Source of the DNA: Marivita sp.
GTDB lineage: Bacteria > Pseudomonadota > Alphaproteobacteria > Rhodobacterales > Rhodobacteraceae
NCBI RefSeq assembly: GCF_020055635.1
Contig: NZ_JAIPUT010000022.1
Coordinates: forward strand, 1 to 62,051
Length of the DNA: 62,051 nt
Direction: 5' to 3'
Below the pieces are notes generated by a model that was not told the origin of the DNA, did no database searches, and saw nothing but the letters and a program-made list of their open reading frames with translations. This document shows positions 14,968-51,454 of this stretch, piece by piece. Both the position numbers and the translations under genes were made by a program. The number at the start of each line of letters is the position of its first letter. The first letter of the stretch is position 1.

Positions 14968-16593
14968 ATGAAGAAACTGCTTATGACAGGTGTGGCCGGT
15001 CTGGCGCTGACCGCGCATATGGGCGCCGCACAGGTGAATGAGGACGCCGCCATGGGCGGCAGCATGATCGTCACCTACAAGGATGATGTGGCGACGCTCG
15101 ATCCCGCGATCGGCTATGACTGGCAGAACTGGTCGATGATCAAATCGCTTTTCGACGGGCTGATGGATTACGAGCCCGGTACCACGACTCTGCGCAATGA
15201 ACTGGCCTCGGAGTATACGATTTCCGAAGTTGGCACAGTGCATACCTTCAAACTCAAGGACGGGATTACCTTCCACAATGGCCGCGAGATCACGGCCGAG
15301 GATGTGAAATACTCGCTCGAGCGCACGACCAACCCCGAAACCCGGTCCCCGGGTGCCGGGTTCTTCGGCATGATCGAAGGCTTCGACAGCTGGAACGCGG
15401 GCGAAGGCGATGGATTGTCGGGCGTCAAGGTTATCGACGACAAGACGGTCGAGATCACCCTGTCGCGCCCCGATGCAACCTTCGGGCATGTCATGGCGCT
15501 TAACTTTGCCTCCATCGTCCCGAAAGAGGCGGTTGAGGCATCAGGTGAGGATTTCGGGCGCGAGCCTGTCGGATCGGGCGCGTTCAAACTTGCCGAATGG
15601 TCCCCCGGTCAACGCGTCGTGTTCGAGCGTTTCGAAGATTATCACCGCGAGAACCTGCCCAAGCTGGATCAGATCACCTTCGAGATCGGGCTTGAACCGA
15701 CGGTGGCGCTCTTGCGTCTGCAACAGGGCCAGGCGGACATTCCGGGCGACGGCATCCCGCCTGCGCAGTTCCTGCAGGTGATGGGTGACCCGGCGCAGAG
15801 CGAGAACGTGATCGAGGGAGGCCAGTTGCACACCGGCTACATCACGCTCAACACGCAGATGGCGCCGTTCGACAATGTCGACGTGCGCAAAGCCGTCAAC
15901 ATGGCGATCAACAAGGACCGGATCGTCAAGATCATCAATGGTCGCGCCGTGCCCGCCAACCAACCGCTGCCGCCCACCATGCCGGGCTATGCCGACGATT
16001 ACGAAGGCTATGCCTATGACCCGGCCAAGGCGCAGGAAATGCTGGCCGAGGCGGGTTTCCCCGACGGGTTCAAGACCGAGCTGTTCGTGATGAACGTCGA
16101 TCCCAATCCGCGCATCGCACAGGCGATCCAGCAGGATCTCAAGGAGATCGGCATCACCGCCGAGATCCGCAGCTTGGCACAGGCCAACGTGATCGCCGCT
16201 GGCGGCGAAGCCGATCAGGCGCCGATGATCTGGTCCGGTGGCATGGCCTGGATCGCCGACTTCCCCGATCCGTCGAACTTCTACGGCCCCATCCTGGGCT
16301 GTAGCGGCGCGGTGCAGGGCGGTTGGAACTGGGCGTGGTATTGCAACGAGGACCTGGACGCGCGCGCCGCCGAGGCCGATGCCATGACCGGCGAGGAAAA
16401 TGCTCAAGCGCGCCTCGATGCGTGGCGGCAGATCTATCTCGACGTGATGGCGGATGCGCCCTGGGTCCCGGTGTTCAACGAACAGCGCTTCACCCTAACA
16501 TCGGACGCCATCGGCGGCGATGACAGCCTCTTCGTCGATCCGGTGCATATCCCGGTTCATTACGATTACGTTTACTCGAAGGATGCGCAATAA
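14968..16593 (+). CDS. ABC transporter solute-binding protein, peptide/nickel (DppA/SBP_bac_5) family
   Basis: 541 residues with a strong AAGGAGG site 8 bases before the ATG and a signal peptide (MKKLLMTGVAGLALTAHMGA, cleavage after AQ or nearby). It contains the family blocks TLDPAIGYDWQNW, FKLKDGITFHNGREITAEDVKYSLERT and YAYDPAKAQEMLAEAGFPDG. The length is normal. As the capture protein for the DppBC/DF transporter next to an amidase, it probably binds a small amide or amide-containing compound in the periplasm. The ligand is inferred from neighbours only. Confidence 0.92.
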   Translation: MKKLLMTGVAGLALTAHMGAAQVNEDAAMGGSMIVTYKDDVATLDPAIGYDWQNWSMIKSLFDGLMDYEPGTTTLRNELASEYTISEVGTVHTFKLKDGITFHNGREITAEDVKYSLERTTNPETRSPGAGFFGMIEGFDSWNAGEGDGLSGVKVIDDKTVEITLSRPDATFGHVMALNFASIVPKEAVEASGEDFGREPVGSGAFKLAEWSPGQRVVFERFEDYHRENLPKLDQITFEIGLEPTVALLRLQQGQADIPGDGIPPAQFLQVMGDPAQSENVIEGGQLHTGYITLNTQMAPFDNVDVRKAVNMAINKDRIVKIINGRAVPANQPLPPTMPGYADDYEGYAYDPAKAQEMLAEAGFPDGFKTELFVMNVDPNPRIAQAIQQDLKEIGITAEIRSLAQANVIAAGGEADQAPMIWSGGMAWIADFPDPSNFYGPILGCSGAVQGGWNWAWYCNEDLDARAAEADAMTGEENAQARLDAWRQIYLDVMADAPWVPVFNEQRFTLTSDAIGGDDSLFVDPVHIPVHYDYVYSKDAQ

Positions 16594-16594
16594 C

Positions 16595-17532
16595 ATGTGT
16601 CAGCACTGTGATTACACGATCCACGGTGCACACCATCACGGGTGGGATCATTCGATCCCGCCCGCTGAGACGGTGGCCCCCGGATCACGCCTTCATTTCA
16701 AATGTCTCGACAGCTCGGGCGGGCAGTTCGACAAAGACAGCACCACCGCCGATGTGTCGCACCTCGATTTCGGAAAGATCAATCCGGTCACTGGGCCGAT
16801 CTTTGTCGATGGCGCACAGCCCGGTGATGTGCTCAAGGTCCAGATCGACGCGTTTCATCCGTCCGGTTTCGGCTGGACGGCGAATATCCCCGGCTTCGGC
16901 CTGCTGGCCGACCAGTTCACCGCTCCCTATCTGAAGATCTGGGACTACAACCCCGAAACCATGGCCCCCGCGCTCTACTCCGATCTGGGGCGCGTGCCGC
17001 TCAAGCCGTTTGCTGGCACCATCGGCCTTGCCCCTGCCGAGGCGGGGCTTCATTCGGTTGTGCCGCCCCGGCGCATGGGCGGCAATCTCGATATTCGCGA
17101 CCTGGCGGCGGGCACGACGCTCTATCTTCCGGTTGAGGTCGAGGGCGCTCTCTTCTCTGTCGGCGACACTCACGCGGCGCAGGGCGATGGTGAGGTTTGC
17201 GGCACGGCGATCGAAAGCCCGATGGATGTCGAGATCACGCTGGACGTGATCAAAGGCGAGAAACTGGCCTTTCCGCGCTTTTCCACGCCCGGCCCGGTGA
17301 CTCGCCACCTTGATGCAAAGGGGTACGAGGTGACCACCGGCATTGGCCCCGACATGATGCAGGCCGCCCGCGACGCGGTTTCGGGCATGGTCGATTTCCT
17401 AGGTCGAACCAAGGGCATTTCGGCCGAGGACGCCTATCTGCTTTGCTCGGTCTGCGGCGATCTGCGGATTTCCGAGATCGTCGACCAGCCGAATTGGGTG
17501 GTGAGCTTCTACTTCCCCAACGTGGTGTTTGA

Positions 17533-17536
<4 letters not shown>
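16595..17536 (+). CDS. fmdA: formamidase/acetamidase (FmdA/AmdA family)
   Basis: 313 residues, beginning one base after the stop of the binding-protein gene; an in-frame ATG at 16583 overlapping that gene is also possible. Family landmarks are SGGQFDKDSTTADVSHLDFG, NPVTGPIFVDGAQPGDVL, FSVGDTHAAQGDGEVCGTAI and the cysteine-containing end LLCSVCGDLRISEIVDQPNW. FmdA/AmdA enzymes hydrolyse formamide or acetamide to ammonium and the acid. The N-terminus MCQHCDYTIHGAHHHGWDH is unusually rich in Cys and His and may bind metal. Hydrolysis products explain why the operon is under an amide sensor. This family is unrelated to the nitrilase-type AmiE that AmiC/AmiR controls in Pseudomonas. Confidence 0.9.
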
Positions 17537-19263
<1,727 letters not shown>

Positions 19264-23058: not shown

Positions 23059-25098
23059 GTGGATAGCAAGGGGCAGGGATTGTCGACTTCGGACCAGATT
23101 TGGGTGCTTGTTTGCTGCGCGCTTGTTTTCCTCATGCAGGTTGGCTTCATGTGCGTAGAGGCCGGCATTACGCGCACTAAAAACAACATCAGCGTCGCCC
23201 TCAAGAACATCGCAGACTTCTCGCTGTCGTTCCTGTTGTTCTGGATTGTCGGATATGGACTGATGTTCGGCGCGAGTGGTTGGGGCCTGTTGGGCCTTGG
23301 AGGACTTGCCCCCGTCGCGACGGAACCAGAGGCGCTCGTTCACTTCCTCTTCCAGGCTGTTTTCGCCGGCACTGCAGCCACGATCATATCTGGCGCCGTG
23401 GCCGAACGATGCAGTTTTCACGGCTATCTGATTCTGACTGCGCTCACGGCGGGTTTCATCTATCCCGTGTTCGGGCACTGGGCCTGGGCCACTGACGCGC
23501 AAGGAGAAGCTGCAGGTTGGCTGGCTGCTCTGGGGTTCCGTGACTTCGCGGGCTCGGGCGTGGTGCACGCTGTGGGCGGGTCCGTGGCTCTGGCGGCGGT
23601 AATCATCATCGGCCCGCGTGACGGGCGTTTCCTTGAAACAGGCTCTGCACGTCGGTTCAACGGGTCGGACCTGCCAATGACGATGCTTGGCGTTTTCCTG
23701 CTCTGGTTGGGGTGGTTCGGCTTCAACAGCGGGAGCGCCTTGGGTTTCGACGAGCGAGTACCCACGATCCTGTTCAATACGTTTGCCGGTGGTTCTGCGG
23801 GCGTGCTGGGTGGCATCGCGCTGTCATGGTACGTCACTGGCCGCCCCAATGTCTTCTTCGCCATGAACGGTGGCTTGGGCGGGCTGGTGGCCGTGACTGC
23901 GGGGTGCGATGTGCTCAGCCCTTCACAAGCGATCCTGACAGGTGCCGTGGCCAGCGCACTGGTGCTGGCGGGGGATCGTCTGCTCGAGCGGTTCCGGATA
24001 GACGACGTCGTCGGCGCCGTGCCGGTGCACATGTTCTGTGGACTTTGGGGTCTTGTTGCGGTCAGCATCTTCGGCACCGGTCTTGCGACGCTTCCCTCGC
24101 AGTTGATCGGCGCAGCAGTGCTCTTGCTCTGGGCCTTTGCGGGCAGTTTCGCTGTCATCTGGTTGCTTGACCGCTTGATGCCTTTGCGGGTTTCGCATCA
24201 CGTCGAGACGATCGGCCTGAACATCGGTGAGCACAACGCCAACACGGATCTGAATGAGCTGTTCGAGGTGATGCAGCGCCAGGCGCGCGACAGAGATCTT
24301 TCGATCCGTGTGCCACAATCTCCATTTACGGAAATCGGCCAGATTGGCATCTTCTACAACTCTGTCATGTACGAGCTCGAACGATCGTTCAAGCGAATGG
24401 AGCAACAGTCCAATGCGCTGCAAGGCGCCTTGGGACAGCATCAGGCTTTACTTCAGAGCGTGCTGCCGAAGTCAGTTGCAGAGCGCATGAACGATGGAGA
24501 GACGCAGATCGTCGACCAGTTCGCGGACGCAACGGTGGTCTTCATCGATTTGGTCGATTTCACGATCCTGTCGGCACAGCAGACACCGCAGGAATCCGTC
24601 AACCTGCTGAAGACGCTCTTCGGCGAATATGACAAGGTAATCGAGCGCTTCGGCCTCGAGAAAATCAAGACGATCGGAGATTGTTACATGTTCGTCTCCG
24701 GCGTGCCGACTCCCACCCCGGATCACTGCGCCGCAGCCGTCGAAGCCGCTATCGAAATCGAGTTCGCGACACGCCAAGTGTCGCAAACCATCGGCCGAAA
24801 CTTCAAGGTCAGGATCGGCATTCATAGCGGCCCGCTGATTGCCGGCGTCGTCGGTGATCTCCGCTTCGTCTATGATCTCTGGGGCAGCACCGTCAACACG
24901 GCCTCCCGGATCGAGGAGGCGGCAGTTCCGGGCAAGATCACTGTCAGCGAGGCGGTGATTGACCGGGTGGGCCCCGATTTTGTGTATCAGCGGCAAGGGC
25001 GCGTGCGGCTCCGCAGCATCGGACCGATGATCCTTTATTCGATCGAGGGGCGGCGGAAGTCGGTTCGTCGCCAAGATGCGAGCGAAGCCGAAGTGTAA
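23059..25098 (+). CDS. ammonium transporter (Amt) fused to a class III adenylate cyclase
   Basis: 679 residues from a GTG start. Residues 10-372 form an 11-helix Amt domain with the pore residues intact: twin histidines H170 (GSGVVHAVGG) and H324 (VPVHMFCG), D162 (DFAG) and the AVAERCSF / GHWAW segments. Residues about 380-470 form a linker with GLNIGEHNANTDLNEL, a HAMP-like stretch and a predicted coiled coil. Residues 490-665 form a cyclase with metal-binding D497 and D541, adenine-selecting K537 and D606 (IKTIGD; YDLWGSTVN), and N613/R617. All catalytic positions are filled, so it should make cAMP. Ammonium binding or transport probably sets cyclase activity, but the direction is unknown. 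No glnK gene is adjacent. Confidence 0.92.
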   Translation: MDSKGQGLSTSDQIWVLVCCALVFLMQVGFMCVEAGITRTKNNISVALKNIADFSLSFLLFWIVGYGLMFGASGWGLLGLGGLAPVATEPEALVHFLFQAVFAGTAATIISGAVAERCSFHGYLILTALTAGFIYPVFGHWAWATDAQGEAAGWLAALGFRDFAGSGVVHAVGGSVALAAVIIIGPRDGRFLETGSARRFNGSDLPMTMLGVFLLWLGWFGFNSGSALGFDERVPTILFNTFAGGSAGVLGGIALSWYVTGRPNVFFAMNGGLGGLVAVTAGCDVLSPSQAILTGAVASALVLAGDRLLERFRIDDVVGAVPVHMFCGLWGLVAVSIFGTGLATLPSQLIGAAVLLLWAFAGSFAVIWLLDRLMPLRVSHHVETIGLNIGEHNANTDLNELFEVMQRQARDRDLSIRVPQSPFTEIGQIGIFYNSVMYELERSFKRMEQQSNALQGALGQHQALLQSVLPKSVAERMNDGETQIVDQFADATVVFIDLVDFTILSAQQTPQESVNLLKTLFGEYDKVIERFGLEKIKTIGDCYMFVSGVPTPTPDHCAAAVEAAIEIEFATRQVSQTIGRNFKVRIGIHSGPLIAGVVGDLRFVYDLWGSTVNTASRIEEAAVPGKITVSEAVIDRVGPDFVYQRQGRVRLRSIGPMILYSIEGRRKSVRRQDASEAEV

Positions 25099-26765: not shown

Positions 26766-27170
26766 ACGACATATTTGATCCTCTGCCCGGTAAATCTGCG
26801 ACATGTCAAACTGGAGCAACGTGCATAACAAGAAGCCGCTGCGATGGCGCAACGACGCAACACAAAGCTTCTCGTCGCAACAGTTGCACCAGAGATGGAG
26901 CGTAATCTGAACATACGAGACTCCGAAGCATATTGGGCCGACCAACTGAACAAGTTTGTGTCAGAGAACCCGGCAGCCGGCGTCGAAGTGGAGACGGTCG
27001 TGCGCAAGGGGGCGGTGCATCGTCAGATCGTCAAGCTGGCAGACGAGCGCAAGGTCGACCTGATCGTCATGGAAACGGCCAACTCGAAAATTTCGGACTA
27101 CCCGCTGGGAACCACGGCAAGCCATGTGGTGAACAACGCCGAGTGCTCGGTGTATATCGTGCGCGGGTAA
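26766..27170 (+). pseudogene. universal stress protein (UspA) gene interrupted by a stop codon
   Basis: Read in one frame, the sequence gives TTYLILCPVNLRHVKLEQRA, then TAA at 26826-26828, then QEAAAMAQRRNTKLLVATVA and onward to IVRG at 27170. Both halves align with a normal UspA: first strand and helix before the stop, nucleotide-binding second half after it (GTTASHVVNNAECSVYIV). No ATG precedes the first half. Translation from ATG 26844 would give 108 residues without the first strand and the ATP-binding DxS loop. The gene is therefore probably dead, although its second half is well conserved. Confidence 0.75.
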
Positions 27171-49914: not shown

Positions 49915-50313
49915 ATGCGCTACTCGTCATCCGCGCACACGCGATTCTATCACAGATACCACGTCGTGTGGGCGACGAAGTATCGGTACAAGGTTTTAAA
50001 GGGCGCAATGCGCGAGCGGATCCGAGAAATCATTATCCAGACGTGCGAAGAGCTGGGTGTCCATATCGTGAAGGGTGTGTTGGCGCGCGATCATGTCCAC
50101 ATGTTCCTGTCAATCCCGCCGAAGTTGTCCCTGTCCGATGTCATGCAGCGCATCAAGGGCCGCTCATCCCGCCGCATCCAGATGGAGTTTCCCGACCTGC
50201 GCAAGCGCTACTGGGGCAGGCGCTTTTGGGCGCGTGGGTATTTCTCCACGACCTCCGGGAACGTGACCGACGACGTGATCAGACAATACCTGGAATTACA
50301 TTCCTCCAAATGA
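49915..50313 (+). CDS. tnpA: IS200/IS605-family Y1 transposase TnpA
   Basis: 132 residues, the normal length. Characteristic blocks are RFYHRYHVVWATKYRYKVLK, the HUH metal motif in ARDHVHMFLSIPP, PDLRKRYWGRRFWARGYF and the catalytic tyrosine in DDVIRQYLELH. It cuts and rejoins single-stranded DNA at the element ends. The frame is intact. The start codon is fixed by GGGGAGGAAG, which is buried in the upstream stem. Confidence 0.93.
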   Translation: MRYSSSAHTRFYHRYHVVWATKYRYKVLKGAMRERIREIIIQTCEELGVHIVKGVLARDHVHMFLSIPPKLSLSDVMQRIKGRSSRRIQMEFPDLRKRYWGRRFWARGYFSTTSGNVTDDVIRQYLELHSSK

Positions 50314-50820: not shown

Positions 50821-51280
50821 TCCGACTTCCAGTCGGAACCGCTTCAGCGTGAAAGAATCGCGTCATGCAATATGACACCGGCAAACACTGCGTTTTCTAT
50901 CACCGCTACCACATCGTCTGGTCGACCAAGTACCGTTACACGGTGCTGACGGGGGCACTGAGACTGCGGGTGCGCGACATCTGCCGGCAGGTCTGCCGCG
51001 AGAACGAGGTCGACATCTTGCGCGGGGTGCTGTCGAGCGATCACGTCCACATGTTCGTCTCAGTGCCGCCGAAGCTCGCCATCTCCGATCTGGTGCGCAA
51101 GATGAGGGCCGTTCGTCCCACAAGGTGCAACGGGAGTTTCCAGCCATCCGAAAGCGCTACTGGGGCTGCCGATTTCGGGGGCGAGGGTACTTTTCAACCA
51201 CCAACGGTGCCATCACGGAAGACATTGTACTTCAGTACCTGGAACAGCACATCGCTGATCCTACCGGCGCCAGCCGGTAG
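50821..51280 (+). mobile_element. IS200-like insertion element, copy 2 (frameshifted)
   Basis: Left hairpin TCCGACT-TCC-AGTCGGA (50821-50837) followed by CCGCTTCAGCG, as in copy 1. Right hairpin CTACCGGC-GCCA-GCCGGTAG (51261-51280), whose last bases are the transposase stop codon. The shared left-end layout shows it is a relative of copy 1, but the interiors differ, so it is a separate element and not a duplication. Together the copies bracket the SOUL fragment. Confidence 0.8.
50865..51280 (+). pseudogene. IS200/IS605-family transposase TnpA, frameshifted
   Basis: The frame from ATG 50865 reads HCVFYHRYHIVWSTKYRYTV and the HUH motif SSDHVHMFVSVPPKLAISDL, then becomes nonsense near 51107. 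Another frame continues RSSHKVQREFPAIRKRYWGC, RGRGYFSTTNGAITEDIVLQ and YLEQH with the catalytic tyrosine, to TAG 51278-51280. A single-base change restores the whole protein, so inactivation is recent. Unlike copy 1, it has no long hairpin before the start. Confidence 0.88.
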
Positions 51281-51454
51281 TCGTTCAGTAAAACTCCGTA
51301 TTTTTTCGTGTATGAGATAGCCAATACGGTGACCACTTGCTGATCTTGTCTTGGTAGGTCTAAGATTACTGACTCCCACATATGTCTATTTTTGCAACCG
51401 GATCGTTGGGAGCTGATTAATCTAAGCTGTTGTAATTAAAAGATTTCGAAAGAA

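Follow-up and report, generated by a model that had tools for sequence, protein, structure and literature searches.

Described ammonium receptors and membrane-anchored cyclases

Amts that act as receptors are an established idea, and forms in which the Amt is joined to a kinase or to a GGDEF domain are already known. Ks-Amt5 from Kuenenia stuttgartiensis (6eu6) carries a histidine kinase as its C-terminal signalling output and, according to the accessible text of its description, binds ammonium, has lost transport and contains an intramembrane ammonium site made up of Q24, E31, N47, D50, T51, T109 and T112 (PMC5764959). Its kinase signal is stated there to go up at low ammonium and down again as ammonium rises, and its authors describe it as lacking a HAMP domain (PMC5764959). 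The second system, Sd-Amt1 from Shewanella denitrificans (8qj3, 8qj4, 8qpf), appears among the fold-search names as 'Receptor Sd-Amt1', with 8qj4 as the ON state and 8qj3 as the OFF state; no paper on it was recognised in the part of the open-access literature covered. As a GGDEF fusion among the relatives collected here (L008) aligns to residues 460–646 of 8qpf, Sd-Amt1 is an Amt-GGDEF protein.

On the output side, Rv1625c/Cya (7yzk) and the cyclases 5o5k and 4p2x combine a class III cyclase domain with a preceding helical element, but they have other membrane anchors and no Amt. The ligands of the six-transmembrane cyclase anchors examined in a 2016 study were not predictable, as stated in its accessible portion (PMC4821796). 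No paper on a fusion of an Amt to an adenylate cyclase was found in the portion of the open-access literature covered; by word search of the available text, 'cyclase' is absent from a 2023 review of prokaryotic Amts (PMC10433425), and no Amt-cyclase is described in PMC1592074 or PMC12918730.

The gene and its reading frame

The gene studied here lies in a window of 62,051 nucleotides, the whole stretch of Marivita sp. DNA that was analysed, and encodes a putative Amt-HAMP-adenylate cyclase (23059–25098, forward strand). Its open frame, 679 codons without a stop, holds both an Amt domain and a class III cyclase domain, and the initial annotation of an Amt-cyclase fusion in one intact frame is upheld, as PF00909 and PF00211 both score far over their cut-offs. 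The frame begins with GTG at 23059 (679 aa), from which residues are numbered throughout. No Shine-Dalgarno-like sequence is present upstream of this codon; AAGGGG precedes a TTG at 23080 (672 aa), which in three of the four orthologues compared (L187, L188 and L189) aligns with an ATG that is, or adjoins, the called start, and which is probably the likelier start.

Amt domain and predicted ammonium site

The Amt domain (residues 12–377; 23092–24189, forward strand) is matched by PF00909 at residues 15–395 (Pfam; E 1.1e-105, 354 bits against a cut-off of 23.2) and shows 11 long helices in the model, with pLDDT mostly above 90. It thus belongs to the Amt/Mep/Rh family by both profile and fold. 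The best fold match is Sd-Amt1 (8qj4; 44% identity, TM 0.92 by target length). Sequence matches in the PDB are ranked Sd-Amt1 (8qj3 and 8qpf, about 2e-98), Ks-Amt5 (6eu6, 5.8e-73), 2b2f, which is A. fulgidus Amt-1 (3e-43), and AmtB (1e-35), an order repeated by the fold search. Like this protein, Sd-Amt1 is a receptor-type Amt with the site letters QENDFTS, the same linker type and a nucleotide-cyclising output; unlike it, Sd-Amt1 has a GGDEF output instead of a class III cyclase, and the two differ at more than half of the positions over the Amt fold.

The hallmark residues of the Amt/Mep/Rh pore (23350–24030, forward strand) are all found, with a phenylalanine gate (F98, F102 and F222), the tryptophan and serine W143 and S226, the aspartate D162 and the twin histidines H170 and H324, and they are invariant in the five orthologues. 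The same set is kept in all 44 fusion rows (own gene counted twice), except that F98 is replaced by tyrosine in two, and also in Ks-Amt5. Two residues before S226, residue 224 (23728–23730) is serine, where at least 90% of 43 aligned proteins have glycine.

By alignment to 6eu6, a Ks-Amt5-like ammonium site is predicted at Q27, E34, N50, D53, T108 and S111 (23137–23391, forward strand; Ks-Amt5 residues from the accessible text of PMC5764959). Compared with the seven Ks-Amt5 residues, five are identical (Q, E, N, D and one T), T112 is replaced by S111 and T51 by F54. Where Ks-Amt5 has the pore-closing Y30 and F34, this protein has V33 and I37, so that two of the three bulky residues are not kept. 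These two site threonines, the two missing pore-closing residues and the HAMP-free linker ascribed to Ks-Amt5 argue against a simple copy of that receptor.

Such differences bear on whether the Amt still conducts. The initial annotation had proposed a protein able to pass or sense ammonium and to make cAMP; the sensing and cAMP-making part is well supported by the anatomy and by the relatives, whereas intact pore residues do not hold up as a sign of transport, because they are equally intact in the fusions and in the non-transporting Ks-Amt5. Ammonium transport may persist. A transceptor, in which the Amt conducts and the transport cycle rather than static binding drives the cyclase, would fit the complete pore set, the absence of the bulky closers at V33 and I37 and a score over the cut-off of the transporter model TIGR00836 (amt; NCBIfam, 360.6 against 343.3). 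We regard it as unlikely, in view of the Ks-Amt5 precedent for an intact but non-transporting pore and of the receptor grouping, tail residue and additional Amt genes described below.

Receptor grouping and sequence signatures

A tree was built from 151 Amt domains, in two runs that were both quick searches. One side of a single branch contains the five cyclase fusions, 36 other C-terminally extended Amts, Ks-Amt5, Sd-Amt1 and seven short Amts; this receptor branch has a support of 93 in one run (Sd-Amt1 row exact; under the starred level of the tool) and 100 in the other. In the latter run the five cyclase fusions form a single branch with a support of 100. The three extended Amts outside the receptor group are Amt-PII proteins (L060, L065 and L069; Clostridial records), which resemble the present protein in having a C-terminal domain fused to an Amt but differ in their PII output, in their position outside the group and in having NENV for QEND.

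Signature residues were counted in 48 receptor-group rows (own included) against 101 others, leaving out the solved chains; since the choice of rows was guided by similarity to this protein and by motif, they do not represent Amts as a whole evenly. Position 388 is asparagine in 48/48 receptor-group rows and aspartate in 101/101 others, so that the C-terminal tail has GLN in place of GLD; the columns used for the tree include this one. It is part of the C-terminal motif GLNIGEH (residues 386–392; 24214–24234, forward strand), and both solved receptors, Ks-Amt5 and Sd-Amt1, also have GLN. V46 is present in 48/48 receptor-group rows and in 7/101 others. The residues Q27, E34, N50, D53 and T108 occur together in 48/48 receptor-group rows and in 41/101 others, so the site is spread beyond the receptors, and its use as a receptor-only marker was rejected.

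Assimilatory transporters of the AmtB type have a C-terminal GLD tail and an adjoining PII partner gene. This feature set was not found for the fusion, which has GLN for GLD and lies on contig C26, apart from the PII genes on contigs C24 and C33. A plain transporter with a stray domain was rejected on account of the receptor grouping and the GLN tail; both also count against the transceptor, since the domain groups with receptors rather than with other Amts and has N388 where all 101 others have D. The change from GLD to GLN may free the C-terminal segment as a lever for the output.

Short Amts (420–433 aa where complete) with GLN tails but without an output domain are found inside the receptor group at L088, L119, L120 and L122. 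They form adjacent pairs at the first three of these loci, two of the pairs being cut by the locus end. They are perhaps receptors that have lost or outsourced their output.

A Pfam scan of 43 proteins (39 fusions and four plain Amts) identified GGDEF in 13, EAL in 9, HisKA in 12, MCPsignal in 8 and PF00211 in 5, with no recognised output in fusion L010. Together with Ks-Amt5 and Sd-Amt1, these outputs bear out the remark in the initial annotation that Amt-kinase and Amt-GGDEF fusions are known.

HAMP-like linker and transducer helix

Residues 395–443 (24241–24387, forward strand) are predicted by the AlphaFold2 model to form a HAMP-like relay, with a helix at 397–411, a connector at 412–424 and a second helix from 425, which runs to 468 toward the cyclase. 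The HAMP-like stretch previously suggested for the linker is thus predicted by the model as well, together with a long helix (425–468), and the helix-connector-helix order between membrane and output is that of a HAMP domain. The core of this relay surpasses every other region of the protein in conservation, with 89% mean pairwise identity among the five orthologues against 64% for the Amt and 68% for the cyclase; 40 of its 49 positions are invariant.

Profile searches for HAMP gave mixed results. The Pfam HAMP model has no match up to E 1 in the full protein or in its linker; with the same limit, PF00672 weakly matches 15 of the 31 scanned linkers, the lowest E being 0.0003, and the own linker is not among them. 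A DgcN/YfiN model matches residues 391–455 with a whole-protein E of 4.9e-5 but scores only 22 bits where the cut-off is 325, the part of YfiN concerned being, as we take it, its HAMP. The own linker alone has no match in the PDB (phmmer); a profile of 31 linkers, chosen from 39 fusions and aligned without any internal gap, retrieves the Sd-Amt1 linker with an E of 5e-7 and also 9trk, a chain named 'histidine kinase,Gcn4p', with E values of 0.0015 over its full length and 0.15 over its best stretch. The latter chain presumably carries HAMP domains. The eight fusions left out of this alignment (L013, L089–L092, L121, L123 and L125) have less similar linkers that are one residue longer. The linker is HAMP-like in the model and probably a true HAMP domain.

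It is followed by a helix or coil with an LLxxxLP transducer element (residues 444–486; 24388–24516, forward strand), assigned from the alignment, the model and the PDB cyclase matches. The coil at 444–463 varies in sequence but is constant in length in the five orthologues. Matches to the PDB cyclases 5o5k, 4p2x and 4p2m start at residues 446, 453 and 457, respectively, and take in the helical element, which places the domain joint just after the HAMP-like core.

That the Amt is a mere membrane anchor, with a cyclase that is constitutive or otherwise regulated, has a parallel in the many membrane cyclases whose anchors have no proven ligand (accessible portion of PMC4821796). We consider it quite improbable here, as the Amt site and the relay are both constrained, the relay more than either domain, and as outputs of three other kinds are found behind related front ends.

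Cyclase domain

The class III cyclase catalytic domain (residues 487–663; 24517–25047, forward strand) is matched by PF00211 (Pfam; E 1e-48, 166 bits against a cut-off of 21.9). It contains D497, K537, D541, D606, N613 and R617, a catalytic set (DKDDNR) kept in the five orthologues. Every catalytic residue named in the initial annotation, as well as its D162, H170 and H324 of the pore, is therefore present and invariant in this set of five. Of the other family cyclases, 20 could be aligned, and 15 of these have the same six residues; 29 cyclase loci were given, nine of them without an alignment or a frame, only stop-free segments were used, and the comparison was made with these 20 rather than with 7yzk, 5o5k or 4p2x. 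In view of the roles of the six residues in class III enzymes, lysine and aspartate at the positions of 537 and 606 indicate ATP as the substrate. By its PF00211 match and complete ATP-type catalytic set, the domain is classified as a class III adenylate cyclase. The AlphaFold2 model of this part is weak after residue 590.

Distribution and maintenance

Protein searches identified full-length orthologues (query about 3–673) in four further genomes, with 60–63% identity and with the pore and catalytic residues kept. One was found in G185 (own plus one other among 198 genomes searched) and three in G491, G285 and G261 (own plus three others among 390 genomes searched), and in a class-level draw of 385 genomes and a phylum-level draw of 398 only the own gene was among the matches listed. 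These counts are lower bounds, as the draws overlap and few candidates were scored per genome, and the draws of 390, 385 and 398 genomes comprise only matches below 1e-70 or 1e-80. A contig scan gave at least 591 relatives, of which the best 80 were retained; 70 frames were extracted from these by motif, with 10 loci missed, and none of the 70 matches the cyclase domain at E 1e-3. None of 491 matched plasmid records covers 80% of the protein.

The fusion is maintained as one gene in five genomes. Values of dN/dS are 0.02–0.24 in 25 of 30 pair-and-region comparisons, with dS saturated and the other five not computable. An artefact of assembly or gene calling, or a decaying chance fusion, has the division of the genome assembly into 192 contigs on its side and is nevertheless close to inconceivable; four further genomes contain this fusion at full length and free of internal stops, which rules out misassembly, and the low dN/dS and the single branch of the five fusions speak against the rest.

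The five orthologue regions have no specific common neighbour, generic ABC ATPases alone being shared besides the fusion at E 1e-8, and a conserved operon partner was accordingly rejected. As G261 has the same genus placement and is just 61% identical, this pattern suggests a patchy gene that is probably either mobile or old.

Genomic and cellular context

The genome contains three Amt genes, the fusion and two others. On contig C33 the Pfam match of a PII gene is followed after 186 bases by that of one separate amt, and a second PII gene is present on C24. Because the genome has this separate amt adjoining a PII gene, the fusion is probably not the main ammonium transporter of the cell; the two other Amt genes likewise weaken the case for a transceptor.

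Two class III cyclase genes and 13 cNMP-binding matches, 12 of them over the cut-off, were found in the genome, and the cNMP-binding proteins could act on cAMP. The other class III cyclase match lies on contig C10 (23922–25506; L005) with a cNMP-binding match about 0.8 kb apart on the opposite strand, a possible pair of cAMP maker and reader.

The first 24 kb match 368 plasmid records, 213 of them from Rhizobium, although the top-ranked one is from Paracoccus. No nitrogen regulator was identified among ten window proteins scanned with Pfam. A scan of 260 bases before each of the five genes for sigma54-like and CRP-like patterns gave one CRP-like match (L190) and none in the window. About 5 kb before the fusion, an acetamidase/formamidase gene (16520–17536), whose product could release ammonium, lies between dipeptide-type ABC transporter genes (14968–19263); a neighbour of this type is not common to the regions of the orthologues. 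A universal stress protein frame (26844–27170) matches only positions 26–141 of a profile of 141; for this reason it was probably called too short or is a fragment. Two similar-looking short frames are located at 49915–50313 and 50865–51320, the first of which matches an IS200/IS605 transposase model.

Proposed mechanism

We consider it likely, from the sequence comparisons above, that the protein is a one-protein ammonium receptor in which ammonium binding would set cAMP synthesis through the HAMP-like relay and the following helix. External ammonium would enter the Amt vestibule and fill an intramembrane site like that of Ks-Amt5, whose receptor model is transferred here by analogy. Occupancy of the site would shift the C-terminal GLN segment and the relay, which would then turn or separate the following helices, so that the dimeric cyclase site is assembled or disassembled and the cAMP level changes. 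Ammonium is guessed to raise rather than to lower cAMP, with a slight leaning only, partly because the Ks-Amt5 signal responds in both directions.

A point against this one-protein receptor is the mismatch between a trimeric Amt and a dimeric cyclase, which equally concerns the kinase and GGDEF fusions. Further points on that side are the spread of the five site letters to other Amts, the substituted site and pore-closing residues, the support of 93 under the starred level, the missing Pfam HAMP match, the longer linker of eight fusions, the weak end of the cyclase model and the failure to find a nitrogen regulator among the ten scanned proteins or a specific neighbour common to the orthologues. 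As Amts are trimeric, while kinases, GGDEF domains, cyclases and HAMP domains are dimeric, the receptor group may share an unusual coupling, for example by the pairing of two trimers. The wider reading, in which ammonium sets cAMP through a receptor Amt, giving a native cyclase with a predictable ligand, and in which the whole group may use one solution such as two paired trimers serving three dimers of relay and cyclase, is put forward tentatively, at somewhat less than an even chance.

Significance for adenylate cyclases and Amts

This fusion bears on the standing question whether adenylate cyclases have receptors in their membrane domains, and for which ligands; as its anchor is a known ammonium-binding fold, a candidate ligand can be tested at once. 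The linker is of equal length in most of the fusions compared, which opens trimer-to-dimer coupling to side-by-side study, and one kind of ammonium receptor appears to have been combined with four or more types of output, mostly through this equal-length linker. If the proposed receptor function is true, nitrogen availability would feed directly into cAMP.
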